33,851 bases of DNA from a bacterium (GCA_017958745.1 JAGDCC010000031.1:1-33851), one strand, 5' to 3'. Numbered from the stretch's first letter, positions 6,001-25,739 are shown. The notes: generated by a model from the sequence alone, not told the origin. Numbers and translations are program-made.

Positions 6001-9000
6001 AAATAAAGCTCCAAGTCTAGTATGTACAAACCAATCAGATAGGTATACGTTAAAGAATATCGGTATCAGTAGTATACAGGGGGTAAGTGGAGATGGTAAT
6101 AATAGACTCAATTATCCAATTGGCTTATTGACAGCAGATGAAGTATCTTTAGCAGGTGGTAAATACAATACATCAAACAATAATTATTATCTTTATTCTG
6201 GGCAGTATTATTGGTTAAGTTCTCCACATAATGTTAGGTATGATTCACAATCTAATACTGCTAATATGTTTTATACATCTACTTATGGGAGTATTTCTTA
6301 TTATGAGTTGCGGGCATCTGGTATCGGTATTAGACCAGTTGTGAATTTAAAGCCATCTATTAAGTATGTTAGTGGTACTGGTACCGTAAGTGATCCATAC
6401 GAGATAGAGAGTATTAATACTTCTACAATGATGTTGAGTGCAACGGAAGGTTCTGTTATGACTGGCAATACAACATCTTTTGTTGCAACTGTAACTTCTG
6501 GTAGTACATCTAATATTTCAGGAACATTACTTGTTAGAAGTGAAGATACTAGTAAAGCAACTGTAAGTCCAGCTAGTAGTAATATAACAGCAACTCCATC
6601 TGGTGTGTCTACAACAATAACTGCTACAGCAGCAGAAGCAGGAGTAAGTAAAATAACTGTATTCTTTATACCTACAGATACTACATACGGAGTTTCATCT
6701 AAGACTTATACTTTAACAGTAGTCCCTTGTACTTCTGGAGATACTTTAGCTAATTGTTTAGTATATGCTGATACAGGAACAAGAAATTACAGTAATGCTG
6801 TAACAGCAATAAATAATAAATCTGCAAGAGATTTCTCTACAACAGCAACAACAGATGAAGGATTACATGCAGCAGCAGATTATTCTAGTATAAGTAGTAC
6901 AACCTTAGATGGAACAAGTTACTATTATAGAGGAAGTGTTCAGGATAACTGGGTAAGTTTTGCAGGCTATTACTGGAGAGTAGTGAGAATAAATGGAGAT
7001 GGTAGTATAAGACTAATCTACAGTGGAACAAGTAGTGATCATGGTGGAAGCTATACAAGCATATCTGATGCATCATTTAGTTCCGCATCTGAAATTTATT
7101 ATATGTCTGGTAGTGCAGATAGTTCAATAAAGAAAGGTCTTGATAGGTGGTATAAGAACAATATTAATACTATTTATGAAAATTATCTATCTAATCAAAT
7201 GTTCTGTTTTGACAAAGAAATAGATAGCATTTCTGGTTATTATACATATTATGGCGCGTATTCAAGATTAGTAACGAACAAAACTCCTAGTCTTGGATGT
7301 CCTAATAAGGAGGATATGTATACGTTAAGGGAGATAGGTCCGAGCATTGTTTTAGGTTCAAATGGAGCTGGTAATAATAAATTAGATTATCCAATAGGTT
7401 TGTTGACTGCGGATGAAGCAGCTTTAGCAGGTGGTGTTTATGATGTTGTTAATAATAGTTTTTACCTCTATGCTGAGAATAGGGATTATTGGCTCGGTTC
7501 ACCTTTTTATAAAAATTCAAATGTTACAACTGGTTTTGAGTTTTATATGAAAGATAGCTCATCTGGAACTGGTGATGCAGGAAAATTATTTGCAACTCAA
7601 AGCTCTGTTTCCCATATTGGTTTTCGTCCAGTAATTAATTTAAAAGCTAGTGTCAAGTATAATGGTGGTATAGGAACAGAAAGTGACCCATATGTAGTAA
7701 AACAAGAGCCTGCATTATTGTTGAGCTCCTCTATTGGTGGTGTGTATCCAAATGATACAACAACTTTTACTGCGAAAGTCTATTCAGGCGGAGAATCTGA
7801 TATCTCTGGTTTATTAACAGTAAGTAGTAGTGATACAAGTAAAGCAACTGTAACACCAGCGAGTAGCAATGTGACAGCAATACCAGGAGGAACGGAGGTT
7901 ACAATAACAATAACAGGAGTGGCATTAGGAAGTAGTACAATAACTGTAACCTTTACACCTACTGATACAAACTATGATGCAGTTTCTAAGATATACACAG
8001 TAACAACGAGAAATAATTATACGATAGACTTTGATGCGAATGGAGGAACATTTACTAATAGTAATACTACAAACACAATAGTGTATCCGACAGATTACTT
8101 AACGATATCACAAAGTAATGTAACTAAGTATTCTCATACGTCTAATGTAGATGATACAGGGTTACGAACATCTAATTTTGGAAATAACTGGACAAATGCA
8201 AATATAACGGGAACAGACAGAGGGGATACTAGCAAAGCTCATGTAGTAACAATATCAGGAGCGAGTTTCTTGACAGTAGATATTTATTACAGTGGTGATG
8301 ATGGTGACTGGGCAACAATATGGGCTGGGAGTCATCCAGATTACACAGCCGCGAATAATTATACTTCTAGTATAATTGGTGGAGCTCAGCTTGGAGGATA
8401 TCAAGGTGGGTCTTATACAGTGAATGGTAATTCCTTAACAAGTATGGGATATAGTCAATTCATAATAAGTGGTGATACTGTAACATTTGGGTTTAAATCT
8501 GATTCAAGCGGAGGATGGTATGGGTATTATGCTGTTATAACAGGAACATTTGAATCCATTACATATACTGGTACATATGAAGAACCAACAAAAGCAGGAT
8601 ATGAATTTCTTGGTTGGTTATCTTCTGAAGATGGAAACATATATCATGACATAAGTGGAGAATCCTTAAGACCAGATGAAGATGTTACATACACGGCACA
8701 ATGGGGACATTATATAGCAATTCCAACTGCAACTAATTACTGTAAATCAGGTTTAGCATATACAGGTAGTAGTCAAATCCTAACTAATACACCCGCAACT
8801 GGTTACACATTTAGTGGTAATACAGGAATTAATGCAGGTAGTTATGAAGTAACTGCTAGTTTAGATACGGATTATGTATGGATAGATGATAGCAGAGGAA
8901 CTAAGACATTTAGTTGTAGTATAGGTAAGGTAACTCCGACAATATCATTAAGTTCAACATCTGGTGGAGTCGAAGTTGGTAGCACAAGTACATTTACAGC

Positions 9001-11488
9001 AACCGTAACAAGTAGTGTAAATTCTGCAGGTACATTAACTGTTACCAGTAGAGCAAGCAGTGTAGCAACAGTAAGTCCAGCAAGTTCTTCTTTAACGGCA
9101 ACAACAACAGGAGTTTCTACAACAGAAACGATAACTGGTATTGCTAAGGGGTATAGTACAATAACAGTGAGTTTTACACCAACAGATACTACTAATTTTA
9201 ATAGTCCATCTAACAAGACATATTCCTTATCTGTAAATGGGGTCAACCAATGTATATCAGGAGATACATTAGCAAATTGTCTAGTCTATAATGATTATGG
9301 TGGTAGAAATTATAGTGATGCAGTAACAGCAATAGGAAACAAGTCTGCATCCAATTTCTCTTCTGTTTCTGAAACATATGAGGGACTTAAATCAATTTCC
9401 GATTATTCTAGTATAAGTGCAACAACATTAGATGGAACAAGTTATTATTACAGAGGGAGAATAGGTGATAACTGGGTTAGTTTTGCAGGATTCTTGTGGA
9501 GAGTTGTAAGAATTAATGGAGATGGAAGTGTAAGAATGATATATAGTGGGACGACTAGTAATCATGCTGGAACAGGTACACGAATAAGTACATCTGCATT
9601 TAACAGTAGTCGTAATAACTCTAAATATGTAGGGTATATGTATGACACAACTACAAATAGTACAATGAAGGGAGTAATAGATACATGGTATGAGAATAAT
9701 CTTAAAGCAAGTTACGAGGGTTATTTGTCAAACGAAATTTTCTGCAATGATACTAGTGTTGGAAGTACGAGTGGTAGTACAATCTATTACAGTACTTATG
9801 CAAGGCTATATACAAATAAAACACCTACATTAGAATGTGTAAATCAATCAGACAGATATACTTTGAAAGAATCTGGGCTTAGTAGTATTTCAGGAGTAAA
9901 TGGAGCAGGTAATAATATGTTAGATTATCCAGTTGGTTTATTAACAGCAGATGAGGTGGCTATAGCAGGAGGTGTCAATGGAACAAATAATACAAGTTAC
10001 TATTTATATACAGGGCAAAATTATAGACTAGGTTCTCCATATAGGTATTATAGCAGTAGTGCTTATGCTTACTACGTTAATACAAGTGGTAACCTGACAA
10101 ATGCTTATGTTACAACGAGTTATGGAGTGCGTCCAGTGATAAATCTAAAATCTGGTGTTAAGTATGCAAGTGGTGATGGTACAGAAGGTAATCCATATGT
10201 AATACAGGAAATACCAACACCAGCAATAACATTAAGTGCTAATAGTGGAAGTGTAGATTCAGGGGATACAACAACGTTTACAGCGACAGTAACATCCAGT
10301 AATTCTTACAATATAGCTGGTACATTAACAGTAAGTAGTGGAGATACAAGTAAAGCAACAGTAAGTCCTGCAAGTACTAACGTAACAGCAACGCAAGCAG
10401 GAGTAGCCACAACAATAACAGTAACAGGTGTGGCCGAAGGTAGTAGTTCAATAACAGTAAGCTTTACACCAACAGATACAGTATATTACAACAGTGCATC
10501 GGATGTATTATATACAGCAACAGTATCTAGTCCTCCACTTGCCAAGAAATTAATCATGGATGATTATGGAAGTAACAACTATGCAGCAGCAGTAGCAGCA
10601 ATAAATAACAAATCAGCTGTTGATTTCTCGACGACAGCAACAACAGATGAGGGCTTACATGCAATAGCAGATTACTCAAGTGTAAGTGCAACAACCTTAG
10701 ATGGAACGAGTTATTACTATAGAGGAGCAGTAGAAGATAACTGGGTAGATTTTGCAGGATATCTTTGGAGAATAGTAAGAATAAATGGAGATGGAAGTAT
10801 AAGATTAATATATAGTGGCACAACAAGTATTCATACAGGATCAGGTACTCAGATAGGTACATCTGTTTTTAACAGTAATGGAAGTGATTCTAAATATGTA
10901 GGATACACATATGATGATAATGGTACAGAAACAGATAGTATAATAAAGACTGCTATAGATAATTGGTATATAGCTAATATTAAGCCAAATTACGAAGGAT
11001 ATCTCTCTAACGAAATCTTTTGTAATGATAGAACATATACTGTTAATGGAAACATCCGTTATTTTGGTGCATATACAAGGCTAACAGCCAATAAAACACC
11101 AACACTACTATGTACAAACACACAAGATAAATATACGTTAAAGGTATCAGGACAAAGTAGTATATCAGGAACGAATGGAGCAGGTAATAACCTATTAGAG
11201 TATCCAGTAGGATTATTAACAGCAGACGAGGTATCTTTAGCAGGAGGTGTAAACGATATCGAGAATAGTAGCAGTTATCTTTATACAAGTAGTAGCTATT
11301 GGCTTGGTTCTCCTCGTATCTTCAATGGTGCTGCTGCTGATTTGTTCACTAATTGGGATGGAAAAATTGCTGGTGGTGGAAATCTAAGTTATAACAAAGG
11401 TGTTCGTCCAGTTTTAAATCTTAAACCTAGTGTTAAGTGGAACGGTGGTGATGGTTCAGAGAATACTCCATATACTGTAAAACTATAA
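2..11488 (+). CDS. Giant secreted repeat protein (3' part): DUF6273-like modules, Ig-like domains, InlB_B-like blocks
   Basis: Partial gene. The frame is open from base 2, and those first codons already encode the start of an Ig-like domain, so the GTG at 35 is internal. 3828 residues are visible. Nine Ig-like (Big_2-like) domains of about 100 residues alternate with seven modules of about 325 residues. Each module carries the conserved blocks LDGTSYYYRG, WRVVRINGDGS, EIFCND, PIGLLTADE and a C-terminal WLGSP...GVRPVINLK, which resembles DUF6273. Two further blocks combine an InlB_B/Flg_new-type repeat, a CUB-like insert and an MBG-like segment. Paired cysteines and Ser/Thr/Asn richness suggest an exported, surface-exposed adhesin-like protein. 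It ends right after the last module, with no LPXTG-like motif and no membrane segment, so any signal peptide or anchor must be upstream of the window or it is held otherwise. Similar domain mixtures are common in gut Bacillota. The ligand is unknown. Confidence 0.9.
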   Translation: MTLSAASGRVLVDNTNNFIATVSSGGSATVTGTLSVVSSDTTKVTVSPASSNITANTSGVATTETITGIAEGDSTITVSFTPADTSNFNSAVNKIYPVVVTVPTLAEKIIMDDYGDDNYNAAVTAINNKSARDFKTTATTDEGLHAIADYSSISSTTLDGTSYYFRGAADDNWVSFAGYLWRVVRINGDGSVRMIYSGTTSNHTGTDTWIGTSSYNVDGLDSKFVGYTYDTDTASTVKREIDAWYENNLKEEYESYLADEIFCNDKSISLERSGEYDTIYMANERLSNSYAPTLQCVNQSDRYTLKAQFGESSISGVSGAGNNMLRYPIGLLTADEVSLAGGLYGMYNNDYYLYTSDDSFWLGSPWQYSPNETYIYSFMFSVGYYFEYSSVSYHGDYNDLTTRGIRPVINLKPSVEYYSGSGTENDPYIIKEIPTPTITLSATENAILLGGTTSFVATVNSGTVSSIPGTLTVRSLDTSVATVSPASSSVTATTSGVSTSITVNGVGGGISRILLEFTPTDTATYGVSSKIYTISVNPCLSGDTLANCLIYADYGTRNYSTATTTINNKTAIVFRDPATTDEGLHAIADYSSVSSTTLDGTSYYYRGAVEDNWVSFAGYLWRVVRINGDGSVRLIYSGTTSNHTGVDTQIGTSPYNVDGLDSKFVGYMYDTTVNSTIKGVIDTWYENNLKAEYEGYLSNEIFCNDRSIAGYDYTNNFSYNTEHRLIQYDYYNHIYPTLQCENQSDRYTLKVQSEYSGIAGVSGAGNNLLDYPIGLLTADEATLSGVSIVGHNYHGYLSTGQLYWTSSPSYGSSYSHVLFVSTFGLGNKEPLSNNYGVRPVINLKSGVKYASGNGTETNPYVIELEPTISLSEYKGSVAPSDTLTFTATVYSGDTSSIPGTFTVSSSDTSKATVSPATSSITAIPSGTSVTVTVTGVASGSSTITVGFTPTDTTTYSTPESRVYTVTTRNDYTVTFNGNGGTFANNANTNTLVYPLGYLTLSNDTVTKYSHTSNVDDTGLKTSNYGNNWTNANITGTDRGDTTKAHVVTIPGARSLTVEIYYNGQGTSYDWVTVWAGSHPDYTAGSNYTSGISGGTRLGGSQSGSYTVNGNSLTNMGHSTFTIHGDTVTFGFKSNASNVGQGYGYYAIITNNGPIESVTYTGTYEEPTKSGYDFVGWLSSADGNVYNNLSGESLRPDDDITYTAQWGHYVAIPTNSYCRSGLSYTGSSQILTNAPGTGYSFSGNSAIDSGYHIVTAILDTDYVWEDNTRDNKGIRCNIYKIYPVLTLGATSGSVVEGNTSTFTAIVTSDVASAGTLSVVSDSTDVVTVSPTSSSITATTAGTSVTETITGVSRKGQGTITVDFIPTDIVNFSRPQKMYYSAFVEGVNQCLSGDTLADCLVYNDYGGRNYSNAIANINNKAPSDFTSISTTYEGLKAIEDYSSVSGTTLDGTSYYYRGDIRDNWVSFGGFLWRVVRINGDGSVRLIYSGTSSNHTGTGTRIGTSAFGSDSNDPKYVGYTYDDNEDSVIKGVVDTWYESNLMENYESYLSNEIFCNDRSVDDNSFGAFKRIFYNSAPSLVCVNQADKYTLKLSGNSYVSGINGAGNNLLNYPIGLLTADEAAIAGSGNYYGYINDTYYLYTGQTYWLGSPSYISSSYLGSTVTSSGYLDAVSVSNTSYNIGVRPVINLKSSVEYYGGSGSENNPYVIKELPTPVLTLSSAQGTVIQGNTTTFTATVASGSSSNIPGTLVVKNTDASIATVSPASTNVTATVSGVATTITLSGVNMGSSKIIVEFIPTDTTTYAVSSKIYNLTVAPCTAGDTLANCLIYSDSGTRNYSDATAAISNKTARDFNTTATTDEGLHAIADYSSVSSTTLDGTSYYYRGAVEDNWVSFAGYLWRVVRINGDGSVRMIYSGTTSNHAGTGTQIGTSSFDDSIYDQKHINYVHDTDTVIKENIDTWYENNLKDNYESYLSNEIFCNDTSIGSIVTADSYYYFGAYSRLYENKAPSLVCTNQSDRYTLKNIGISSIQGVSGDGNNRLNYPIGLLTADEVSLAGGKYNTSNNNYYLYSGQYYWLSSPHNVRYDSQSNTANMFYTSTYGSISYYELRASGIGIRPVVNLKPSIKYVSGTGTVSDPYEIESINTSTMMLSATEGSVMTGNTTSFVATVTSGSTSNISGTLLVRSEDTSKATVSPASSNITATPSGVSTTITATAAEAGVSKITVFFIPTDTTYGVSSKTYTLTVVPCTSGDTLANCLVYADTGTRNYSNAVTAINNKSARDFSTTATTDEGLHAAADYSSISSTTLDGTSYYYRGSVQDNWVSFAGYYWRVVRINGDGSIRLIYSGTSSDHGGSYTSISDASFSSASEIYYMSGSADSSIKKGLDRWYKNNINTIYENYLSNQMFCFDKEIDSISGYYTYYGAYSRLVTNKTPSLGCPNKEDMYTLREIGPSIVLGSNGAGNNKLDYPIGLLTADEAALAGGVYDVVNNSFYLYAENRDYWLGSPFYKNSNVTTGFEFYMKDSSSGTGDAGKLFATQSSVSHIGFRPVINLKASVKYNGGIGTESDPYVVKQEPALLLSSSIGGVYPNDTTTFTAKVYSGGESDISGLLTVSSSDTSKATVTPASSNVTAIPGGTEVTITITGVALGSSTITVTFTPTDTNYDAVSKIYTVTTRNNYTIDFDANGGTFTNSNTTNTIVYPTDYLTISQSNVTKYSHTSNVDDTGLRTSNFGNNWTNANITGTDRGDTSKAHVVTISGASFLTVDIYYSGDDGDWATIWAGSHPDYTAANNYTSSIIGGAQLGGYQGGSYTVNGNSLTSMGYSQFIISGDTVTFGFKSDSSGGWYGYYAVITGTFESITYTGTYEEPTKAGYEFLGWLSSEDGNIYHDISGESLRPDEDVTYTAQWGHYIAIPTATNYCKSGLAYTGSSQILTNTPATGYTFSGNTGINAGSYEVTASLDTDYVWIDDSRGTKTFSCSIGKVTPTISLSSTSGGVEVGSTSTFTATVTSSVNSAGTLTVTSRASSVATVSPASSSLTATTTGVSTTETITGIAKGYSTITVSFTPTDTTNFNSPSNKTYSLSVNGVNQCISGDTLANCLVYNDYGGRNYSDAVTAIGNKSASNFSSVSETYEGLKSISDYSSISATTLDGTSYYYRGRIGDNWVSFAGFLWRVVRINGDGSVRMIYSGTTSNHAGTGTRISTSAFNSSRNNSKYVGYMYDTTTNSTMKGVIDTWYENNLKASYEGYLSNEIFCNDTSVGSTSGSTIYYSTYARLYTNKTPTLECVNQSDRYTLKESGLSSISGVNGAGNNMLDYPVGLLTADEVAIAGGVNGTNNTSYYLYTGQNYRLGSPYRYYSSSAYAYYVNTSGNLTNAYVTTSYGVRPVINLKSGVKYASGDGTEGNPYVIQEIPTPAITLSANSGSVDSGDTTTFTATVTSSNSYNIAGTLTVSSGDTSKATVSPASTNVTATQAGVATTITVTGVAEGSSSITVSFTPTDTVYYNSASDVLYTATVSSPPLAKKLIMDDYGSNNYAAAVAAINNKSAVDFSTTATTDEGLHAIADYSSVSATTLDGTSYYYRGAVEDNWVDFAGYLWRIVRINGDGSIRLIYSGTTSIHTGSGTQIGTSVFNSNGSDSKYVGYTYDDNGTETDSIIKTAIDNWYIANIKPNYEGYLSNEIFCNDRTYTVNGNIRYFGAYTRLTANKTPTLLCTNTQDKYTLKVSGQSSISGTNGAGNNLLEYPVGLLTADEVSLAGGVNDIENSSSYLYTSSSYWLGSPRIFNGAAADLFTNWDGKIAGGGNLSYNKGVRPVLNLKPSVKWNGGDGSENTPYTVKL
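314..1300 (+). repeat. DUF6273-like module 1 (type C)
   Basis: It opens with LAEKIIMDDYG and lacks the N-terminal CxxGDTLAxC cysteine pair found in types A and B. It keeps the inner pair (EIFC ... LQC). The variable loop between WLGSP and GIRPVIN is 1097-1210 (38 residues). Its closest relative by opening motif is module 7. Confidence 0.75.
1615..2592 (+). repeat. DUF6273-like module 2 (type B)
   Basis: It opens with CLSGDTLANC and GTRNYS. Here the usual WLGSP is WTSSP. The variable loop is 2426-2506 (27 residues). It shares near-identical DNA with module 1 (around 640-680 and 1960-2000, exactly 1320 bases apart) and with module 4 (around 1800-1900 and 5620-5720). Confidence 0.75.
2905..3840 (+). 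repeat. InlB_B-like / CUB-like / MBG-like block 1
   Basis: An InlB_B (Listeria-Bacteroides) repeat starts with YTVTFNGNGGTF and ends with GYDFVGW ... YTAQW. It is interrupted by about 170 residues of CUB-like or jelly-roll sequence (SHTSNVDDTG ... WVTVWAGSHPDYTA ... GYYAIIT). An MBG-like segment with two cysteines (YCRSGLSYTGSSQ ... IRCNI) follows. The fold names for the insert and the tail are tentative. Confidence 0.6.
4150..5112 (+). repeat. DUF6273-like module 3 (type A)
   Basis: It opens with GVNQCLSGDTLADC and YNDYGGRNYS and has TYEGLK where the other types have TTDEGLH. It follows InlB block 1 and pairs with module 6, which follows block 2 and shares these type-specific motifs. The variable loop is 4943-5032. 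Confidence 0.75.
5437..6405 (+). repeat. DUF6273-like module 4 (type B)
   Basis: It opens with CTAGDTLANC and GTRNYS. The variable loop is 6227-6325. About 47 bases encoding RMIYSGTTSNHAGTGT are identical, synonymous codons included, to module 6 (around 5720-5770 and 9530-9580). This suggests recent conversion between non-adjacent modules. Confidence 0.75.
6727..7700 (+). repeat. DUF6273-like module 5 (type B)
   Basis: It opens with CTSGDTLANC and GTRNYS. It is the most divergent copy in the middle: NQMFCFDKE replaces NEIFCND, and PNKED replaces VNQSD. The variable loop is 7505-7618 (38 residues), and GFRPVIN follows it. Confidence 0.75.
8010..8930 (+). repeat. InlB_B-like / CUB-like / MBG-like block 2
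   Basis: Second copy of the 2905-3840 block in the same order: NYTIDFDANGGTF, the CUB-like insert, GYEFLGW ... YTAQWGHY, then the cysteine-paired MBG-like segment (YCKSGLAYTGSSQ ... FSCSIGK). Together with the flanking Ig units and type A modules it defines a higher-order unit of about 5.1 kb. Confidence 0.6.
9240..10203 (+). repeat. DUF6273-like module 6 (type A)
   Basis: It opens with GVNQCISGDTLANC and YNDYGGRNYS and has TYEGLK, like module 3. The conserved W of WLGSP is R (YRLGSP). The variable loop is 10040-10123. Its loop and flank (AYYVNTSGNL ... GVRPVIN) look most like a textbook DUF6273 C-terminus. Confidence 0.75.
10535..11488 (+). repeat. DUF6273-like module 7 (type C, C-terminal)
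   Basis: It opens with LAKKLIMDDYG, without the first cysteine pair, like module 1. The variable loop is 11315-11398. The protein stops 28 residues after GVRP, immediately after the terminal motif NTPYTVKL. Confidence 0.75.
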
Positions 11489-13444: not shown

Positions 13445-13473
13445 TTGCTATGATAACCCCACTATGATACAAT
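13445..13473 (+). promoter_or_regulatory. Leaderless promoter of the 13480 gene
   Basis: TTGCTA (13445-13450), 17-base spacer, TACAAT (13468-13473), then six bases to the ATG at 13480. The predicted transcript starts at the start codon. Confidence 0.5.
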
Positions 13474-13479: not shown

Positions 13480-13857
13480 ATGGAAGGATTGCTGGAAGAA
13501 AAAGAAGTAGGGGTAGAAACAAGTAGCAGAATAATATTGCTATCTCTATTGGATTTTCTTAAATGGTGGTACCAGAAAATGCCTATATGGCATCTAAGAA
13601 AACTAGATAGAATATCTACAGTTATGGATGACACATTATCCATATCTTTGTTGGTAAGAAACTTCTTTGTCCCATGGCATAGAGATTATTCCTTAATGGG
13701 TTTTGGATTTGGTATTGTGATGAAACTCCTATATTTACCAATCGCATTAGCTCTATATCTTCTAGCAACATTATTCTACTTTGCATTAATTATAATTTGG
13801 CTGTTATTACCAATAGGAGCAGTAGCTTTTATCCTATACACCTTTTTGAAATTTTAA
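13480..13857 (+). CDS. Small membrane protein paired with the Clp-type ATPase
   Basis: The protein has 125 residues and unknown function. It opens with an acidic stretch, followed by an amphipathic region (LLDFLKWWYQKMPIWHL) and a conserved-looking block (DDTLSISLLVRNFFVPWHRDY). One or two strongly hydrophobic segments follow at about 73-121. I recognise the FF-PW-R-D type of block from small Patescibacteria proteins but cannot name a family. Its stop is six bases before the ATG of the membrane-anchored Clp ATPase, so the two are almost certainly co-transcribed. A role as membrane partner or substrate receptor for that ATPase is inference. The ATG is supported by the promoter placed exactly at it. 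Confidence 0.75.
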   Translation: MEGLLEEKEVGVETSSRIILLSLLDFLKWWYQKMPIWHLRKLDRISTVMDDTLSISLLVRNFFVPWHRDYSLMGFGFGIVMKLLYLPIALALYLLATLFYFALIIIWLLLPIGAVAFILYTFLKF

Positions 13858-13863
13858 ATCACT

Positions 13864-16578
13864 ATGTTACCAAATAAATCTCAAAAAACATTAATAGGAA
13901 AAAATAATAAAGTAGATAACACATTTGTGTTGTTAAATAATTCTTATCCACTTGTTAACAATGAAGATGAATCCGTTTTTCTTGTATCCAAAGAACATTA
14001 TTTTACGGTAACATCTTCTCAAATAAAGTTTATATTGAATAATTTTCTTAGATACAGAACATTCTCATCTCTATTGAGAAATATCTGTGATGTACTGGTG
14101 ATTCTGGGAATATTTATAGCATTCTGTCTAATATTAAAAAATAATGAACAGTTTGCAAATTATCCTATTGTAAATTCAATATTAGAAACAAGATTTATAA
14201 ACTTACTATTTGGATTCTCTATACTTGGGCTGTTGTATCTTTGGTACGACTTCTTCCATACAAAAACACACCCAATAAAACTACCATTGGCCAAGGAAAT
14301 TACAGACAAAGAAATAGCAGAAATAAAAGCAGTTGGCTTTAAGTTTGGAATGTATACACATCTTGGAATTATAAACTTTACTAACGATGATTTCTTAGGA
14401 ATGTTATGTCTTTATTTTAAAAATAATGAGCTACAGACTTATGAACTATTCCAACATCTAGTTACAGAAACACCACAAATAGTAGAAATTGTGAGAAGAT
14501 CAGGTGTTCTCTTTGATACAGCAAGCTTTAAGAAAGGAGATATTAACAATAACACATTACCAAATATTACATTTACAGAATTAAGAAGTTTGCTTACATA
14601 TTCTGCACAAGAGGCTTTATTAACCAATAGCAGTGAAATAGGAGTAGAGCATCTTTTCTTAGCAATAATGAAGACAAATGATACTTTGCAAAGATTTTTG
14701 AGAGAAAATAATGTGACTTTAGATACCTTTAGATATGTTTGCTCCTACGAAAACGAACTTGTCGCAAGAAGAAATAGGACAGACCATTTTAATCCAAATG
14801 TTCCGTATTATAAAAATGGAGGATTTGCTAATGAATGGTTGTATGGATATACATGGGTATTGAGTCATTTTAGTAGAGAATTAAACAAAACCGTCGCTGG
14901 AAGTAAGGATACATATGGAATTGGGCATGACACAGAAGTGTCTGCTTTGGCATCTATATTAGGAAAAGTATCTAATAAGAATGCATTACTACTAGGAGAA
15001 CCTGGTGTAGGTAAGTCTTCTATTATCCTTGGTCTTGCACAGAGAATTAACTCTGGAGATGTACAGCAACAGTTGGCGGGTAAGAAGATAATTGAGCTAG
15101 ATCTTAACAGACTTATTGCTTATGCACAGCAGAATAATAATATGGAAGAAACCATAATTAAGACAATGGATGAACTCTCCAAAGCTGGTAATACAATTCT
15201 TTATATTGATGAAATACAAGAAATAATACCAAGTAAAGCTAGTGGTGGTTCTGACCACAGTCTTGCAGGTATTCTTTTGCCTTACATAATTAACAGTAAG
15301 TTTCCTATTATTGGAAGTATAAGTTATGCGGATTACAAAAAATACCTATACAGTAATGAGTCCTTGAGATCTTCTTTTACAAATGTAGAGATAAAAGAGA
15401 TATCTCCTGCAGATACAATGGAAATTATGGAAAGTAAAATTCCAAGTCTGGAAGATAACTTTAAATGTTATATAACGTTTCCTGCACTTACTGCTGCTGT
15501 GGATTTAGCACAAAGGTATATAAAGGAAAGAAAGCTTCCAAGTAGTGCAGTGCAGACAATAGAAACTACATGTGCATGGGCACAAGCAAATGGTGTTAAG
15601 ACAATAACAGCAGAGCATGTGGCACAGGCAATTTCCATACAGAAAGATATTAATGTGACATCTATTACAGAAGATGAGAGTAATAAACTAATGAAGCTAG
15701 AAGACAATATTAGAGCTAGAGTTATTGGACAAGATGAAGCTGTAAATGCTGTCTCTGAGGCTCTTAGAAGAGCAAGAACAGATGTAAGAAACCCAGACAG
15801 ACCAATTGCAGTATTTCTGTTTATTGGACCTACTGGTGTTGGTAAAACAGAGCTAGCAAAAGTTACAGGAGAAGAATTCTTTGGAACTAAAAATAATCTT
15901 ATACGTGTAGATATGTCTGAGTATAAGGAAATAGATAGTGTACAAAAGTTCTTAGGTGGAGAAACTGGTAATGTGATGGGACAATCTAGCATCTCTTTAA
16001 TAGATAAAATTAAATCTAAACCAAACTCTGTTGTTCTCTTTGATGAGATAGAGAAGGCCAATCCAGCAATCTTGGATTTATTCTTGCAACTCTTTGATGA
16101 AGGTCGTCTTACAAGCAATTATGGAGAAACAGCAGATTTTACTAATTCTATAATCATTTGTACGAGTAATATTGGTAGTAAGATATTGTTGGATACTTTG
16201 GAAAAGGGAGATATGGAGTGGAAGGATGCAAAAAGTGCTGCAGTTACAGAACTTAAGAATACTATTAAACCAGAATTACTTAACCGTTATGACAAAGTAA
16301 TAGTCTTCTCTCCACACGATATTAAGAATCTAAGCAAGATTTCTGAACTCTTACTAAAGAATCTCGCAGATAGACTTAGTCAAAAAGGATATGTTGTTAA
16401 ATGGTCTAAAGAGATTCCAAAGATTATTGCAACAAAAGCAAACGAACCTGGACTTGGTGCAAGACCTTTGAGAAGATTCATACAGGATAGGGTAGAAGGG
16501 CATATAGCTACAGAAATCATAGAAGGAAATCTAAAACAGGGAGATGAGATAGAAATTAAAGAAGATTGGATGGAGTAG
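13864..16578 (+). CDS. Membrane-anchored Clp/HSP100-type double AAA+ ATPase
   Basis: The protein has 904 residues. A cytosolic N-terminus is followed by two membrane segments (about 74-91 and 112-129) and a Clp_N-like repeat (about 236-290). AAA+ 1 has Walker A GEPGVGKSS (378-386) and Walker B ILYIDE (445-450). AAA+ 2 has Walker A GPTGVGKTE (655-663), Walker B VVLFDE (723-728), Arg finger in LLNR (808) and sensor 2 GARPLRR (865-871). There is no ClpB/ClpC middle coiled coil and no IGF/VGF-type ClpP-docking tripeptide where ClpC has one. The domain-1 pore motif (KYRG in ClpC) aligns to AQQNNN, the domain-1 Arg finger pair (ERRF) to RSSF, and the domain-2 pore GYVG to GNVMG. It is therefore probably an ATP-driven remodeller at the membrane without ClpP, with domain 1 partly degenerate. 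Its stop is three bases from the convergent sufB stop. Confidence 0.88.
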   Translation: MLPNKSQKTLIGKNNKVDNTFVLLNNSYPLVNNEDESVFLVSKEHYFTVTSSQIKFILNNFLRYRTFSSLLRNICDVLVILGIFIAFCLILKNNEQFANYPIVNSILETRFINLLFGFSILGLLYLWYDFFHTKTHPIKLPLAKEITDKEIAEIKAVGFKFGMYTHLGIINFTNDDFLGMLCLYFKNNELQTYELFQHLVTETPQIVEIVRRSGVLFDTASFKKGDINNNTLPNITFTELRSLLTYSAQEALLTNSSEIGVEHLFLAIMKTNDTLQRFLRENNVTLDTFRYVCSYENELVARRNRTDHFNPNVPYYKNGGFANEWLYGYTWVLSHFSRELNKTVAGSKDTYGIGHDTEVSALASILGKVSNKNALLLGEPGVGKSSIILGLAQRINSGDVQQQLAGKKIIELDLNRLIAYAQQNNNMEETIIKTMDELSKAGNTILYIDEIQEIIPSKASGGSDHSLAGILLPYIINSKFPIIGSISYADYKKYLYSNESLRSSFTNVEIKEISPADTMEIMESKIPSLEDNFKCYITFPALTAAVDLAQRYIKERKLPSSAVQTIETTCAWAQANGVKTITAEHVAQAISIQKDINVTSITEDESNKLMKLEDNIRARVIGQDEAVNAVSEALRRARTDVRNPDRPIAVFLFIGPTGVGKTELAKVTGEEFFGTKNNLIRVDMSEYKEIDSVQKFLGGETGNVMGQSSISLIDKIKSKPNSVVLFDEIEKANPAILDLFLQLFDEGRLTSNYGETADFTNSIIICTSNIGSKILLDTLEKGDMEWKDAKSAAVTELKNTIKPELLNRYDKVIVFSPHDIKNLSKISELLLKNLADRLSQKGYVVKWSKEIPKIIATKANEPGLGARPLRRFIQDRVEGHIATEIIEGNLKQGDEIEIKEDWME

Positions 16579-16581: not shown

Positions 16582-17889
16582 CTATAGATTCTTGCTTAGT
16601 AATTGGTTTAACTCCACAGCATATTCCATTGGCAACTCTTGGGTGAAGTTGTCTATGAAACCAAGGATAATTAGTTCTGTCGCCCTTTCTTTAGTAATTC
16701 CTCTACTCATAAGATAGAAGAGGGCATCATCGTTGATTCTAGATACAGTTGCTTCGTGTTCTAAAGAAGATTCTTTTGTACTGCATATATTTGTTGGGTA
16801 TGCATCGCTTTTAGAATTCTTATCTACAATTAATGAGTCACATTTAACCATAGCATGGCTATTTGTAGCACTCTTTTTAATCTCAACTTTTCCTCTGTAA
16901 GAAGCATTCCCACCAAGTCTAGCTATACTCTTAGAAATTATTGTACTGCTTGTATTTTTACCGATGTGTATCATTCTTGCTCCACTATCTAGTATCTGTT
17001 TATGTGTAGCAACACCAATAGTTATACATTTTCCAGAAGAGTTATCTCCTTTAAGTACACAGCAAGGATACTTCATTGTGATGGAACTACCAATATTTCC
17101 ATCTACCCATTCCATACTACCATTTTCTTCTACAACAGCTCTTTTAGTTACGAGATTTAATACGTTAGTTGCCCAATTCTGTACTGTTGTGTATCTACAA
17201 TAACTATTTTTACCAACATAAATCTCTACAACAGCTGCATGTAGACTAGAATCGCTATATGTTGGTGCAGTGCAACCTTCTATGTAATGAAGTTTGCTGT
17301 TGTCATCAACGATGATGAGTGTTCTCTCAAACTGTCCCATTGCTTTAGAATTAATTCTAAAATAACTCTGCAATGGTCTTTCCAGTGTAGTGTTTGGTGG
17401 TATGTAAATAAAACTTCCTCCAGAAAAGACTGCTCCATTTAGTGCTGTGAATTTATTCTCTGCTGTTCCAACAATCTTAGTGAAATATTTTTTAACTAAA
17501 GAAGGATACTTTTTCATGGCAACTTCTATGGATGTGAATATGACCTTCTTTTCTACTAATTCTTCTAACATGTTGTGATAAATAACTTCGCTCTCATACT
17601 GAACTCCCATACCACTCATGTATTGTTCACTGCTTATTACACCTAAGGCTTCAAATTCTGATCTAATGCTTGGATTTATACAACTCCAGCTACTATCTAA
17701 TTCATTAACTTTGTCTTTGTAATAAATAATCTTGTTGAAATCTATGTCTATCTTAGGTCCAAATTTGGGCATATCCAATTTGTTAAAGAGTTGGTAGCTT
17801 TTTAGTCTGTAGTCCAGAATCCACTTATCCTCATCTTTTATCTTGGATATTTCTCTTATATTTTGTTCATTAAGACCTGTTATTGTCAT
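16582..17889 (-). CDS. sufB: Fe-S cluster assembly scaffold SufB
   Basis: The protein has 435 residues and is the scaffold subunit of the SufBCD complex on which iron-sulfur clusters are built. It shows the SufB core: GMGVQYESEVIYHN, ALNGAVFSGGSFIYIP, IEGCTAPTYS, the beta-helix, then VKCDSLIV (C350, at the position of the E. coli cluster-building Cys) and SSLEHEATVSRI with the FYLMSRGI C-terminus. The N-terminus is somewhat short compared with the usual 460-490 residues. It is the last gene of the operon, and its ATG overlaps the sufU end by 20 bases with no ribosome-binding site, so translation is probably coupled. Confidence 0.93.
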   Translation of the reverse strand: MTITGLNEQNIREISKIKDEDKWILDYRLKSYQLFNKLDMPKFGPKIDIDFNKIIYYKDKVNELDSSWSCINPSIRSEFEALGVISSEQYMSGMGVQYESEVIYHNMLEELVEKKVIFTSIEVAMKKYPSLVKKYFTKIVGTAENKFTALNGAVFSGGSFIYIPPNTTLERPLQSYFRINSKAMGQFERTLIIVDDNSKLHYIEGCTAPTYSDSSLHAAVVEIYVGKNSYCRYTTVQNWATNVLNLVTKRAVVEENGSMEWVDGNIGSSITMKYPCCVLKGDNSSGKCITIGVATHKQILDSGARMIHIGKNTSSTIISKSIARLGGNASYRGKVEIKKSATNSHAMVKCDSLIVDKNSKSDAYPTNICSTKESSLEHEATVSRINDDALFYLMSRGITKERATELIILGFIDNFTQELPMEYAVELNQLLSKNL

Positions 17890-18307
17890 TTTGGATTATT
17901 TTCTTAATAGCTTCTATAGGGAGTAGGGCACATTTTTTTCTAGATGGTTGCTTGTAGATTTCGTCGTAGATGTTAAATTCTCCAAGAATTTCTGGATTGT
18001 AAGGTTGTTCATTAATCATGTTTTCAAAGTTGGTAACTATTTCTTTTGCTTCTTCCAATGTCTTTCCTTTAAATTGTTTTGTCATAACACTTGTACATGA
18101 AGTACAAATTGCACATGCTTCTCCATCAAACTTAATATCTTCTAATTTCTCATTGTTTATTTTTGCAGCAACGTCTATGTTGTCTATGCAAGATTCGTTT
18201 CTAGAATTGACTTTTGTATAGCTTTTATCATTGCTATCTGGGAGACCTTTATTAGAAGGATTTTGGTAATTGTCTAGAATTATGTTTCTTTTAACATTTG
18301 CATCCAT
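17870..18307 (-). CDS. sufU: SufU-type zinc-dependent sulfurtransferase
   Basis: The protein has 145 residues. In the Gram-positive-type SUF system SufU accepts sulfur from SufS. The zinc-site residues are present at C40 and D42 (ESCIDN), C65 (GEACAICTSC) and C126 (KKCALLP). The NPSNKG motif near the N-terminus is also typical. Two additional cysteines (C68, C71) lie next to the second ligand. The start codon directly follows the sufS stop (TAA then ATG, no gap) and no Shine-Dalgarno is seen. SufE is absent from the window, consistent with a SufS-SufU pair. Confidence 0.92.
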   Translation of the reverse strand: MDANVKRNIILDNYQNPSNKGLPDSNDKSYTKVNSRNESCIDNIDVAAKINNEKLEDIKFDGEACAICTSCTSVMTKQFKGKTLEEAKEIVTNFENMINEQPYNPEILGEFNIYDEIYKQPSRKKCALLPIEAIKKIIQNDNNRS

Positions 18308-19504
18308 TTATACAAGAGTGTCTAATATTTTATCTTGGTTTCTTAGTGCTTCCACAACTTTATCTATATCTTCTTTTGTGTTGTAAAAACTCAAGCTAAT
18401 ACGACATGTAGAGTTATCTTGTATTACTTCATGAAGCATCTTGGCACAGTGATTTCCTGCTCTTATGCAAATGTTTAATTGATTAAGATAGATTGCAACA
18501 TCTTGGCTAAAGTATTTATCCACGTTGAAAAGTACAATTGTTCCTTGTGTGCTAGGGTTGTAGATTTTTATATTAGGAATCTGTTTCATTTGTTCTAGTA
18601 AATATTGGTGTAGGGATATTTCGTAATTATGAATCTTTTCCAATCCTATACTGTTTATGTAATCTATTGCTGCTCCTAGACCAATAACTCCTGCAATATT
18701 TCTTGTTCCTGCTTCTAATCTTGTTGGTAGCTCTTTTAGACTGTAATCTCCTGTGCTTGAGAACTCTGTGTTCATATCACCACCATATTCTATTGGTTGT
18801 ATCTTTTCTAATAAAAATTTCTTTCCATAAAGAATACCAGTTCCCGTCGGTCCGTACATTTTGTGTCCGGAAAAAGCGAGAAAGTTTATGTTATCTTCTT
18901 GTACATCTATTTTTGTATGTGCAATACTTTGTGCTGCATCTACTACAAATAGTATGTTATTTTCTTTGCAAAGTTTACCAATGTTGTTTATATCCCTTGT
19001 GTCTCCAATTGTGTTTGTTATGTGTGCAATGGATATGACCTTTGTATTTGGTGTTATGCAATTTTTAATACTTTCTACAGTAAGTTTGTAATCTTTATCT
19101 AAAGGTGCGAAGACTAATTTGAATCCTATTTTTTTGCTTAAAACTATCCAAGGTAATGAATTGGATGCATGTTCTGCTTGATCTATGATTACCTCATCTC
19201 CTGGTTTGAGGTAGTGCTGCATAAAACCAAAAACAACAATATTAAGACCATTAGTTGTTCCATTAGTGTAAATAATCTCTTCTTTACTTTGTGCATTTAT
19301 GAATTCTCTTATCTTTTCTCTTGTAGTTTCGTATTCTTTGTCTGCTCTTATACTGTTGTTGTAATCTCCTCTATGTATATTAGAAGTGTATTCTTTGTAA
19401 TAGTCTGTAACTGCTTTTATAACAGACTTTGGCTTCATGGTTGTTGCAGCATTGTCCAGATAGTCTATTCCTGTTTTTAAAATGTCGAAATCTTCTGTGT
19501 TCAT
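18308..19504 (-). CDS. sufS: Cysteine desulfurase SufS
   Basis: The protein has 398 residues. It is a class V PLP enzyme that converts cysteine to alanine and delivers persulfide sulfur to SufU. It begins with the typical YLDNAATT. It shows EHASNSLPW, VDAAQSIAH, the PLP lysine K215 in FSGHKMYGPTG, and the active-site C353 in RAGNHCAKML. The length is normal. The ATG overlaps the sufD TGA stop (ATGA). A TATAAT lies nine bases upstream of its ATG inside sufD and could give a minor internal promoter. Confidence 0.94.
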   Translation of the reverse strand: MNTEDFDILKTGIDYLDNAATTMKPKSVIKAVTDYYKEYTSNIHRGDYNNSIRADKEYETTREKIREFINAQSKEEIIYTNGTTNGLNIVVFGFMQHYLKPGDEVIIDQAEHASNSLPWIVLSKKIGFKLVFAPLDKDYKLTVESIKNCITPNTKVISIAHITNTIGDTRDINNIGKLCKENNILFVVDAAQSIAHTKIDVQEDNINFLAFSGHKMYGPTGTGILYGKKFLLEKIQPIEYGGDMNTEFSSTGDYSLKELPTRLEAGTRNIAGVIGLGAAIDYINSIGLEKIHNYEISLHQYLLEQMKQIPNIKIYNPSTQGTIVLFNVDKYFSQDVAIYLNQLNICIRAGNHCAKMLHEVIQDNSTCRISLSFYNTKEDIDKVVEALRNQDKILDTLV

Positions 19505-20214
19505 AATGAATTAATTATATCATTAAATATCTTTTCCTCCTCATCCTTTAATTGCATGCTGTTAATTAAAAATGCTCTAGTTAATAATTTAATAGATTCT
19601 TCTTTACTAATACCTCTTGTCATTAAGTAGAATAGGTAATCTTCTTTAAAAGATCCAACATATGCAGAATGATTTGCTTCTATGTCATTATTACTAACTA
19701 TTAGATTTGGTAATATTTGACTGTCTCCATCCTTGTAGTTAATTATCTGGTTTTCTTGATTGAAATATGTATTGCTAGAGTTCTTTTCTATTATTCCATC
19801 TACAATAAATCTAAAAACACTGTTTTCCATATTTAGTGCATGGTTAACAATGTTGCTTCTGCTATCTTCCTTACTATGTATAAATTTTTCTGTATAAATG
19901 TTGTCTTTGTAATTAACGATGCTGTTGTTTATGTTTACATTAGCATTCTTACCTTTGATATTTACTGTTAGAGTATCGGAACAATCTATACTTAGCTTAT
20001 TTATTATTAAATTAACATTTTTATCTACATTATATGTAATGATGTTTTTTGTATTCTTACTAGTATCTAGCACACGTATAGATGTATTAGGGGAGGTCTC
20101 AATTGTTAACTCTGTATTAGAATTTGCATAATTAATGAAGATATTTGTATCTTCCTTTATCTTTATTCTTTCTTTGTGGTTACTGTTGTCTTTGTTATTT
20201 AGAATTATATCCAT
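19501..20214 (-). CDS. sufD: SufD, short form
   Basis: The protein has 237 residues, against roughly 420-440 for typical SufD. It partners SufB in the SufBC2D scaffold. The C-terminal signature is intact: H182 in EANHSAYVG (position of the functionally important SufD His), FYLMTRGI and the final helices. What is missing is the N-terminal helical domain and part of the beta-helix. The ATG overlaps the sufC end by 20 bases, so it is not a truncated remnant and the reading frame is undisturbed. The stop is TGA, which shows TGA is a stop codon in this genome. A short SufB paralog is the only alternative; operon position makes SufD the better name. Confidence 0.85.
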   Translation of the reverse strand: MDIILNNKDNSNHKERIKIKEDTNIFINYANSNTELTIETSPNTSIRVLDTSKNTKNIITYNVDKNVNLIINKLSIDCSDTLTVNIKGKNANVNINNSIVNYKDNIYTEKFIHSKEDSRSNIVNHALNMENSVFRFIVDGIIEKNSSNTYFNQENQIINYKDGDSQILPNLIVSNNDIEANHSAYVGSFKEDYLFYLMTRGISKEESIKLLTRAFLINSMQLKDEEEKIFNDIINSL

Positions 20215-20923
20215 GTTTTTCTAAATCTAAAGCTAAAGACATTCCTCCTGTTTTAACAATAGTTCCATCTATCATCTCATGAACAAATGTAGGCTTTATA
20301 TATTCTAGTATTCTTGGATAGTGGGTTATTATTAATAATGATGTATCTTTATGATCCTTGAGATATTCCTTTATATTCTTGCAACAAATTTTGAGACTAT
20401 CTATATCTAGGCCACTATCTAATTCATCTAAAATAATGAAGCTTGGCTTGAGCATTTTTATCTGTAAAACTTCGTTCTTTTTTCTTTCTCCACCACTAGC
20501 ACCAACGTTAAGAGAGCGGTAAATCATTTCTTCTGGAATCTTTAATTCTTCTGTTTCTCTCATCATGTCTGCCATGAATTCGTAGAGATTAACAGGTTCT
20601 TCTTCTTTTGCATTAATAGCTGTTCTTATAAAATCGCTATTCTGTACACCTTCTATGCTGATAGGATTTTGCATGGATAGAAATATTCCCATTCTTGCTC
20701 TTTCGTCTACAGATAGATTATTTATCTTTACACCGTTGTACTTTATTTCTCCTTTGTCTATCTTGTATCTGCTATTTCCCATTATTACATTGGATAACGT
20801 GGACTTTCCAGTACCGTTGGGGCCCATTATTGCATGTATTTCTCCTTCTTTAATTTGTAAATTAAAGTTGTTTAATATTTTTATATTTTCTACAGATACA
20901 TTGAGATTTTTTATTTCTAACAT
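20195..20923 (-). CDS. sufC: SufC, ABC-type ATPase of Fe-S assembly
   Basis: The protein has 242 residues and is the ATPase of the SufBCD scaffold. It has Walker A GPNGTGKST (34-42), Q-loop region SMQNP, signature GASGGERKKNE, Walker B FIILDELDSGLD and the H-loop ITHYPRI. The length is normal for SufC. It is the first suf gene, 56 bases downstream of the zinc-ribbon membrane protein on the same strand. Its own -10 is weak, so read-through from that gene is possible. No Shine-Dalgarno is visible. Confidence 0.95.
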   Translation of the reverse strand: MLEIKNLNVSVENIKILNNFNLQIKEGEIHAIMGPNGTGKSTLSNVIMGNSRYKIDKGEIKYNGVKINNLSVDERARMGIFLSMQNPISIEGVQNSDFIRTAINAKEEEPVNLYEFMADMMRETEELKIPEEMIYRSLNVGASGGERKKNEVLQIKMLKPSFIILDELDSGLDIDSLKICCKNIKEYLKDHKDTSLLIITHYPRILEYIKPTFVHEMIDGTIVKTGGMSLALDLEKHGYNSK

Positions 20924-23398: not shown

Positions 23399-24679
23399 AT
23401 GTCAGTATTAATAGGATCCATACCAAACGACAAAAAAGATGATGTCAAACTAGCTAAGAAATTATCTAAAATTAATTTCTACAAAAAGAGTACATCGCTA
23501 GAAGAATTAGAAGCATACTTCTCAGAAATCTTTGAGGACAGATCTCTGTTTATGTTTAACAGAGGAAGAGATAGTCTTTATTTCTTATTAAAATCACTAA
23601 ACATAAAAAGAGAAGAAGAAGTTATCGTCCAAGCATTTACATGTGTAGCAACAGTATCTCCTATATTGTGGGTACATGCAAGACCTGTCTATGTAGATAT
23701 AGACAAAGAAACATATAACATGGATATTTCCAAGTTAAAGGAAGCAATTACGCCTAAAACAAGAGTAATTATTGTACAGCACACATTTGGAAATATAGCA
23801 GATGTATACAAAGTAAGAGAAATTGTAGATGAAATTAACAAAAAGAGAGAAGAGGATAAAAGAATATCTATAATAGAAGACTGTTGTCACTTATTCTATT
23901 TGACATCTCAAGAGTTGGAAGAGAAGTATGTAGGAATCTTTAGCGATGCATTCTTCTTTAGTTTTGCACAAGATAAAGCCATAAGCTGTACACAAGGAAG
24001 TGTATGTGTTGTAAATAACACAAAAATATTTGGAAAAAGAAAAACAGAATATGCAAATATACCGGAATTATCTAAGGAAGATGCTAAATATAATGCAAAA
24101 TATATTGTTACATGGAATAAGATTAGAAAGTGGTATTTTGTAAAAGTATTGCCATTTATTAAAAGTGATAAGTTTACAATTGGAAAATTTCTAATTCTTT
24201 ATTATAGAGAGAGAGGAGATATAAAGAAACAAGCGGATAATAATACAATTTACTACGATGGTATTCACAAACTAAGTTATATTCAGGCAAGCTTATTATT
24301 GCATCAGTTAGATAAATTGGAAGATCTTAACGAACACAGAATTGTTATTGAAAATATATACAACAAAGGTTTAAAAAAACAATTTCAATTCAAGAAAGAA
24401 AAAGGGAGTGTTTTACTCAGATATCCAATTATTGTAAAAAATATTGAAAAGATAAGAGAAGCTTTAAAGAAAAAGAAAATAATTGTTGGAAAATGGTATT
24501 CTACACCAATATTTCCTCTAGATTATGATGAATTAGAAAAAGTAAATTACAAAAAAGGACTGTGTCCTAATGCAGAAAGTTGTGGTAAAAAGATAATTAA
24601 TCTTCCATTAAGTATAGATACAACAGAGGAAGATGCTAAAAATATTGTGTCTATAATAAATAAATTTGCTAAACAATAA
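23399..24679 (+). CDS. DegT/DnrJ/EryC1-family PLP aminotransferase
   Basis: The protein has 426 residues. It has the fold-type I sugar-aminotransferase layout: NRGRDSLYFLLKSL, VIVQAFTCVA, RPVYVDID, PLP-ring Asp in IIEDCCHLF (D161) and Schiff-base lysine K193 in SFAQDKAIS. Family members transaminate nucleotide-linked keto-sugars. The substrate here is unknown, and the divergent C-terminus could mean another amino acceptor. It is followed after one base by the FemAB-like gene (TAA-T-ATG), so the two are translationally coupled. This points to a shared role in the cell wall or a surface glycan. The arrangement and the QAFTCVA block recall Patescibacteria homologs. Confidence 0.85.
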   Translation: MSVLIGSIPNDKKDDVKLAKKLSKINFYKKSTSLEELEAYFSEIFEDRSLFMFNRGRDSLYFLLKSLNIKREEEVIVQAFTCVATVSPILWVHARPVYVDIDKETYNMDISKLKEAITPKTRVIIVQHTFGNIADVYKVREIVDEINKKREEDKRISIIEDCCHLFYLTSQELEEKYVGIFSDAFFFSFAQDKAISCTQGSVCVVNNTKIFGKRKTEYANIPELSKEDAKYNAKYIVTWNKIRKWYFVKVLPFIKSDKFTIGKFLILYYRERGDIKKQADNNTIYYDGIHKLSYIQASLLLHQLDKLEDLNEHRIVIENIYNKGLKKQFQFKKEKGSVLLRYPIIVKNIEKIREALKKKKIIVGKWYSTPIFPLDYDELEKVNYKKGLCPNAESCGKKIINLPLSIDTTEEDAKNIVSIINKFAKQ

Positions 24680-24680
24680 T

Positions 24681-25739
24681 ATGTCTTTAGAATTTAAAAC
24701 AATAGAAGATGATAGAGAGTGGGATAGTTTAGTTCAGTCTTTGCCAAAGTACTCTTTTCTAAATAGTAGCTGTAGATATAGATTTAATCTAGAAGTAGGT
24801 AGTAAATCTTACAGGTATGCTATTTATGATAAGGAAGCTTTCCTAGGAATAATTACTTTAACAATAGGGTATTCTAAGTTGTTTGGAAATTTCTTAGAGT
24901 GTAAACATTCTCCATTACTTTTTAAGTACGAATATTCTACACTAGAGGAAATTACAGAGTTTTGTAAGAATTTAGCAAAAGAGAATAATTGCTTTATGTT
25001 TAGATTTGCTCCATTGATACAGGAAAATGAAGATTTAGAGAAGTTTTATAATGAACATGAATTTAAGAAAGCACCTATACATAATGTAGATGCGCTTATT
25101 TCTCAGCATATGGATTTGACTTTGGATATTGCAGAATTAAGACACCAGCTTAGTAGTAGTAGAAAAAATAGATTAAATAAGTTGCTAAGAGATGAAACAG
25201 TATCTGTAAAGATATATAATGATAAAACTGCTTTTGATGATTTTAGAAAATTCCATGAAGAAACGGTTGCTCTTAAAGGTTATACAGATAAACCAACGGA
25301 TATCTTAATGAAAGAGCTATCTATGCAGGAAGAGCAGGGTATGTGTTATATGATTGTTGGTTGTATAGAAGATAAGCCAATTTCTATATGGCAAGCTACT
25401 GTTTATGGAAAAAATATGCATTTATACCAAGCATGTTCTAGTACGGAATATAGAGAAAAGAATCAAATAATGACAACACTTCTTTATTGGAAGACGGTTG
25501 AACTAGGGCAGAGTCTTCATTTAGAAACATTGGATTTGTTTGGTGGTGTAGTACCAAAGGGATGGGAACATAGTAGTCATCCATGGAGTGGAATTAGTGA
25601 TTTTAAGGAAAGTTTAGGAGGAGAAAAGATAACATATATGCATAGTAGAGATTATATGCTTAATAAACCTAAGTATTGGCTGTACTATTGGTATTCTTAC
25701 ATAAGAACTAGAAAGAAAGGATATACAATAGATTGGTAA
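24681..25739 (+). CDS. FemAB/FemX-like aminoacyl transferase (GNAT fold)
   Basis: The protein has 352 residues from the ATG at 24681, one base after the previous stop; an in-frame TTG at 24666 inside that gene is less likely. The pattern fits the FemABX family, which adds amino acids from aminoacyl-tRNA to peptidoglycan precursors. The N-terminal GNAT half runs through SFLNSSCRYRFN and ECKHSPLLF. A central basic stretch follows (MDLTLDIAELRHQLSSSRKN), then the second GNAT half (YMIVGCIEDKPISIWQAT ... LYQACSSTEYREKNQIMTTLLYWKTVELG ... LDLFGG) and the KESLGGE C-terminal motif. The long FemA coiled-coil arm is absent. The amino acid donor cannot be predicted. Confidence 0.82.
   Translation: MSLEFKTIEDDREWDSLVQSLPKYSFLNSSCRYRFNLEVGSKSYRYAIYDKEAFLGIITLTIGYSKLFGNFLECKHSPLLFKYEYSTLEEITEFCKNLAKENNCFMFRFAPLIQENEDLEKFYNEHEFKKAPIHNVDALISQHMDLTLDIAELRHQLSSSRKNRLNKLLRDETVSVKIYNDKTAFDDFRKFHEETVALKGYTDKPTDILMKELSMQEEQGMCYMIVGCIEDKPISIWQATVYGKNMHLYQACSSTEYREKNQIMTTLLYWKTVELGQSLHLETLDLFGGVVPKGWEHSSHPWSGISDFKESLGGEKITYMHSRDYMLNKPKYWLYYWYSYIRTRKKGYTIDW

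Follow-up and report, generated by a model that had tools for sequence, protein, structure and literature searches.

A membrane-anchored Clp-type ATPase and its WWY membrane partner in Patescibacteria

The window, the whole 33,851-nucleotide stretch analysed here and contig C25 in the 722-kb assembly of a Ca. Dojkabacteria MAG, encodes a 904-residue Clp/Hsp100 two-ring AAA+ ATPase with a Clp N-domain and a membrane hairpin, and beside it a 125-residue protein made up of a newly recognised membrane domain, the WWY domain. The parts of the ATPase are of known Clp type; the family is phylum-wide in Patescibacteria and is unnamed in the domain libraries searched. This conserved membrane machine probably performs a job at the membrane rather than ordinary protein threading or degradation.

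The WWY-ATPase locus and its architecture

The two ORFs (13480-13857 and 13864-16578) lie on the same strand with 6 nt between them, as the original prediction of a small membrane-protein gene coupled directly upstream of the ATPase had it. The features of the pair are listed below.

13445..13473 (+): candidate promoter, TTGCTA-17 nt-TACAAT, with TG before the -10 hexamer (extended -10); sequence match
13480..13857 (+): WWY membrane protein, 125 aa; ORF
13864..16578 (+): Clp/Hsp100-type two-ring AAA+ ATPase, membrane-anchored, 904 aa; ORF, Pfam, AF2, alignment
14080..14268 (+): hydrophobic hairpin of the ATPase, residues 73-135; hydropathy, AF2
14581..14781 (+): Clp N-domain-like region, residues 240-306; Pfam Clp_N and fold match of the equivalent region of the relative L117
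14989..15021 (+): ring 1 Walker A, LLGEPGVGKSS; alignment
15112..15150 (+): ring 1 pore loop LIAYAQQNNNMEE replacing VVAGTKYRGEFEE; HMM alignment
15196..15222 (+): ring 1 Walker B, ILYIDEIQE; complete in Dojkabacteria, without its Glu in many of the other lineages
15361..15384 (+): ring 1 arginine-finger region SLRSSFTN replacing ALERRFQP; alignment
15820..15852 (+): ring 2 Walker A, FIGPTGVGKTE; alignment
15952..15984 (+): ring 2 pore loop LGGETGNVMGQ replacing VGAPPGYVGH; alignment
16033..16056 (+): ring 2 Walker B, VLFDEIEK; alignment
16162..16275 (+): sensor 1 (TSN) with the shortened stretch that follows, in which the ClpP-docking [ILMV]GF/L loop is missing; alignment
16276..16293 (+): ring 2 arginine finger, LLNRYD; alignment

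Pfam searches of the ATPase returned AAA_2 (1.7e-46), AAA (7.8e-19), ClpB_D2-small (3.9e-17) and AAA_lid_9 (2.8e-12), and a phmmer search of the PDB reached 3e-111 to ClpC. The AF2 model (mean pLDDT 83.5) was matched by Foldseek to S. aureus ClpC with a TM-score of 0.87 on the target. A Clp_N match at residues 249-290 (E 1.8e-5, 25.3 bits against a cut-off of 20.7) reveals an N-domain that the first reading of the protein had missed. The protein falls below the NCBIfam ClpA/ClpC equivalog cut-off (TIGR02639, 432 vs 993 bits) and below that for ClpB (TIGR03346, 469 vs 1232 bits). Alignment to ClpC and ClpB confirmed three of the earlier by-eye readings, namely that both Walker A/B pairs are intact, that the middle (M-domain, coiled-coil) insertion is absent and that no [ILMV]GF/L loop for ClpP is present. 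The two membrane helices proposed at the same time are also predicted here, with hydropathy segments at residues ~73-91 and 106-124 lying inside AF2 helices 51-93 and 110-135.

The WWY protein is short, hydrophobic and helical: a helix bearing the WWY residues is followed by an FFVPWHRD motif and then by hydrophobic helices; W29, W30, Y31, P65, D69, G74 and P111 are conserved. Searches gave no Pfam, NCBIfam, PHROG or PADLOC match, no plasmid match and no AAA match. A phage or plasmid origin of the pair was rejected on the missing PHROG and plasmid matches of the partner. A relative in which the two proteins are fused, L117, clarifies the layout: its AF2 model (pLDDT 84) comprises a WW-motif helix, a short break with P-x-x-x-D, two long hydrophobic helices and an all-helical domain. 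The best PDB matches of that last domain are the ClpB and ClpC N-domains (1khy; probability 1.00 but E 0.04), and the membrane (WWY) part has no significant PDB fold match (all E > 0.04). The window's WWY protein corresponds to the first part of L117, and the hairpin and N-domain of the 904-residue protein correspond to the remainder.

The original prediction also placed the pair under a leaderless promoter. The -10 hexamer of the candidate promoter ends 6 nt short of the WWY ATG (13480), with a predicted transcription start at or next to that ATG and a transcript that is possibly leaderless. The TTGCTA-17-TACAAT element is plausible as a promoter, but shuffled sequence yields promoter-like sites as often as this region does, and conservation of the element is not visible upstream of relatives.

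Elsewhere in the same genome a canonical Clp (contig C43), ClpP (C13) and FtsH (C37) are encoded. Immediately beyond the ATPase lies a SUF iron-sulfur operon (SufB, NifU-like, SufS, short SufD-like and SufC; 16582-20923, - strand), occupying the site where most Dojkabacteria relatives carry nusB, rnc, rpsP and khpA; the SUF genes here are a local rearrangement in the window genome. The neighbours gave no hint of the substrate: only these housekeeping genes recur downstream in Dojkabacteria, and between lineages the neighbours of the pair vary. The window also holds a putative surface protein of 3817 aa (35-11488, +) with DUF6273, Big_2-like and Listeria-Bacteroides (Flg_new) repeat domains, a sortase gene (26026-26865) and, just ahead of the latter, a DegT-type aminotransferase adjoining a weak FemX-like acetyltransferase (23399-25739, +). 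An EcoRI-family restriction endonuclease (29284-29967, +; Pfam 2.9e-16) converges on a D12-class adenine methyltransferase (29964-31127, -), and the two are likely a complete restriction-modification system.

Linkage, fusion and distribution in Patescibacteria

A genome scan with the ATPase retrieved only relatives named Dojkabacteria, and the window genome is assigned to that group on this basis. Orthologues share ~41-64% identity throughout the order, and the protein search found more distant relatives in the class. At all ~40 Dojkabacteria-class loci where the upstream side is covered, the WWY gene lies directly upstream of the ATPase; two distant WWY genes that a single-sequence search missed were recovered with a profile. 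Five genomes of the class (G045, G048, G051, G052 and G054) have a canonical Clp and lack both the membrane ATPase and WWY.

In an effort to follow the pair more widely, a profile built from Dojkabacteria WWY sequences was run on 380 sampled Patescibacteria genomes and found the domain in 199; a broader profile found it in 238/380 genomes and 202/313 genera. Fifty-nine WWY loci from other lineages were then compared, with an adjacent member of the ATPase family in 40 and an N-terminally fused WWY in 18 (58/59). Since these loci were picked by their WWY match and the Dojkabacteria set by its ATPase, they test for the ATPase given WWY, and the Dojkabacteria set tests the reverse. The proposed co-occurrence of the two genes holds without exception at the Dojkabacteria loci and, as adjacency or fusion, with a single exception among the loci compared across the phylum. 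At that exception, L128 (G332:C17:19000-31000), a strong WWY domain (6419-6763, +; E 2e-30) has no membrane Clp ATPase within ~5 kb. The state of the pair, fused or split, changed at least 5 times on the ATPase tree, and these natural fusions suggest that the WWY protein and the ATPase form one complex.

Most genomes carrying the membrane ATPase also have a canonical Clp; G015 (99% complete), G024 (94%) and G025 (94%) carry the membrane ATPase and no canonical Clp. FtsH is present in 82/87 phylum genomes, and because the two coexist, a role as an FtsH replacement was rejected. A link to Tat absence and folded-protein export was looked for, but Tat is present in only 10/87 phylum genomes, so the comparison carries little information. 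An anti-phage role was also rejected, as PADLOC gives only generic AAA matches and the neighbours are housekeeping genes. ClpP is encoded in 28/29 relatives. Some eleven Dojkabacteria genomes (G006:C8, G004:C4, G015:C3 and G041:C14 among them) have clpP on the strand of the pair, at a distance of 3-17 kb upstream.

A quick maximum-likelihood search over both rings, with the pore columns retained, gave a tree of 104 sequences. One branch, with an SH-aLRT support of 100%, has every canonical Clp (among them ClpA and ClpB of E. coli) on the same side, so a single origin would suffice for the membrane family; the tree gives no position for the root, its deep forks are poorly supported and it contains some long rows.

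Pore, arginine and ClpP-docking residues

An HMM alignment of the ATPase to S. aureus ClpC pairs KYRGEF with QQNNNM, GYVG with GNVM and ERRF with RSSF, reproducing the pore and Arg substitutions previously read by eye. To follow these positions through the family, 98 membrane-family members were compared with 23 canonical controls (E. coli ClpA and ClpB, and canonical paralogs from Patescibacteria), using E. coli ClpB numbering. The ring-2 pore residue Tyr653 is present in 23/23 controls and in ~1/98 family members (L113), and Arg331 and Arg332 of ring 1 are both present in 23/23 controls vs 0/98. Because every canonical control keeps the Tyr and the Arg pair, their loss in the membrane family is not chance, and the homologs thus bear out the suggestion that both are consistently missing. 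At the ring-1 pore position the controls have Y, F or M, and the membrane family practically never does. Ten of the 23 controls (L167-L175 and others) carry Met here (KMRG) and keep GYVG in ring 2; loss of the ring-1 Tyr is therefore not diagnostic by itself, and a functional reading of that loss alone was dropped.

The catalytic residues of ring 2 (Lys611, Asp677, Glu678, Asn719, Arg756 and Arg815) hardly vary, whether in the family or in the controls; the Walker A Lys, Walker B DE, sensor 1, arginine finger and sensor 2 are kept in at least 63/64 sequences outside Dojkabacteria and in all untruncated Dojkabacteria rows. The ring-1 Walker-B Glu279 is present in 34/34 Dojkabacteria; elsewhere only 34/64 sequences have E or D there, and the tree requires at least 16 changes at this position, from which it follows that ring 1 decays repeatedly and ring 2 does not. 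In most Dojkabacteria an Arg is conserved one residue upstream of the Arg331 position (ESLRQSF), which could be a displaced arginine finger.

The ClpP motif [ILMV]G[FL] was found after the ring-2 sensor 1 in 0/95 membrane-family members, and the segment is ~13 residues shorter. Canonical paralogs in the same Dojkabacteria genomes carry a VLGF ClpP-docking motif. At the ring-2 pore loop, AF2 confidence drops below 50 over ATPase residues 701-709. Outside Dojkabacteria the loop is usually shortened or polar and is almost deleted in L066/L067 and L136. Near a loop, an aromatic remains in a few members (GYPG in L113; KY in ring 1 of L040 and L057), and the Gly655 column, two residues from Tyr653, holds F, L or M in 25/34 Dojkabacteria. 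For these reasons some pulling is possible, and the ring-2 loop may grip weakly in Dojkabacteria. The proposal that the machine does not thread polypeptides in the usual way is accordingly favoured by the Tyr and Arg losses across homologs and tempered by these bulky residues.

Mechanism, alternatives and precedents

We put at about an even chance the reading that the ATPase is a membrane-tethered, ring-2-driven remodelling motor that works without conventional threading and without feeding ClpP. The WWY protein and the ATPase hairpin would together form a membrane base, on which the Clp N-domain and the two stacked AAA+ rings would sit in the cytosol. Ring 2 would be the motor that hydrolyses ATP, and ring 1 would serve mainly for nucleotide binding or assembly, since ring 1 lacks the arginine-finger pair and often the Walker-B Glu. 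With no conserved aromatic in either pore loop and the ClpP-docking loop gone, the machine would probably not pull unfolded chains into ClpP; instead, conformational change driven by ring 2 would remodel, release or move something at the membrane. What it acts on could be a complex of membrane proteins, a cargo in its folded state or the machine's own membrane base. More tentatively, and at somewhat less than even likelihood, the family could be a Patescibacteria-wide, Clp-derived membrane machine that uses its WWY base and acts on folded proteins or on complexes in the membrane, moving or remodelling them without threading. To our knowledge, no bacterial Clp/Hsp100 protein has been described as acting in such a non-threading way.

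Several other readings accommodate part of these data. Threading could persist if the ATPase is a membrane-protein dislocase like Msp1/ATAD1 or Cdc48, its ring-2 loops gripping through Met/Leu/Phe or through the backbone, without handover to ClpP. The bulky hydrophobic side chain that many Dojkabacteria have close to the tip of the ring-2 loop, the retained Clp N-domain and the full ring-2 ATPase machinery are consistent with this, as is the working ring 1 of Cdc48, whose loop is non-aromatic (Met) in an enzyme that keeps the aromatic in ring 2 (PMC5511170). The shortened, polar or nearly deleted ring-2 loops outside Dojkabacteria speak against it, as does the invariance of the ring-2 Tyr in canonical controls, and we judge a dislocase possible but rather unlikely. 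The same pore losses bear on whether this is an ordinary ClpC/ClpA-type partner of ClpP that is merely membrane-bound. Nearly all relatives do have ClpP, several of them upstream on the same strand, but the docking motif is absent throughout the membrane family although canonical paralogs in the same genomes have one, and the probability of this reading is very small.

The state of the two rings weighs on the remaining alternatives. A ring 1 that is degenerate in many lineages would suit a structural scaffold, a pseudo-motor in which ATP binding merely assembles a membrane complex; the ring-2 Walker B Glu, sensor 1, arginine finger and sensor 2 are, however, near-invariant over ~98 divergent sequences, an invariance that argues for selection for hydrolysis and makes a scaffold improbable. 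The missing pore loops and ring-1 Arg fingers might instead be supplied by the canonical ClpC/ClpB of the same cell in mixed rings, tethering normal unfolding to the membrane. A canonical Clp is available in most of these genomes, and paired inactive and active AAA+ rings are known, for instance Torsin-LAP1 (PMC4358337). Against this, the three genomes noted above carry the membrane Clp with no canonical Clp, and the ring-2 site is intact and self-consistent with its own Arg finger; we consider mixed rings quite improbable.

Comparison with known systems places the family among the Clps. ClpC/ClpA are the best sequence and fold match, sharing the N-domain, ring 1, ring 2 and C-terminal domain; the membrane ATPase differs in its membrane anchor and its separate or fused WWY domain, and in lacking the M-domain, ClpP loop, pore Tyr and ring-1 Arg pair. 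The ClpB/Hsp104 disaggregases share ring sequence similarity and, like the membrane ATPase, have no ClpP loop, but they differ from it in that it has no middle coiled-coil domain, is membrane-anchored and has lost the pore Tyr. FtsH/FtsHi share a membrane-tethered AAA+ ring, though the membrane ATPase has no M41 protease domain and belongs to a different AAA clade. Plasmodium Hsp101, the PTEX motor, likewise has a Clp-type ring at a membrane with dedicated partners, and its structure 4irf is an N-domain match. Hsp101 threads cargo through the EXP2 channel, keeps its pore aromatics and has no membrane helices of its own.

The membrane Clp ATPase belongs to neither the Bcs1 nor the Torsin family, which are its closest functional precedents. 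TorsinA is a Clp-related (ring-2-like) ATPase without an arginine finger that is completed by the membrane protein LAP1, and TorsinA-LAP1/LULL1 resembles the present pair in joining an ATPase without a standard finger to a membrane partner (PMC4358337). TorsinA is eukaryotic, single-ringed and lumenal, and LAP1 is an AAA+-like domain that donates the finger (PMC4358337). Unlike LAP1, the 125-aa WWY partner is a small hydrophobic helical domain with no AAA+-like fold to donate a finger, and ring 2 of the membrane ATPase has its own. Bcs1 is a membrane AAA+ protein that acts on folded cargo without threading; it is of a different AAA clade, single-ringed and heptameric, and folded-cargo transport is shown for Bcs1 (PMC11143374) and hypothetical for the membrane Clp. 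In place of the Bcs1-specific domain and single AAA ring, the ATPase has two Clp rings and a Clp N-domain.

Patescibacteria genomes are very reduced, yet about two thirds of those sampled carry the WWY membrane part, and some Patescibacteria keep the membrane ATPase as their only Clp of its class. Clp is not mentioned in the main text of five Patescibacteria papers (PMC10633639, PMC11665869, PMC12102498, PMC6744442 and PMC8406219). The family offers a natural experiment on a Clp motor after the loss of its pore aromatics and protease docking, with about a hundred divergent sequences that a strongly supported branch sets to one side. It also gives the genetics now emerging for cultured Patescibacteria a concrete target in the membrane.
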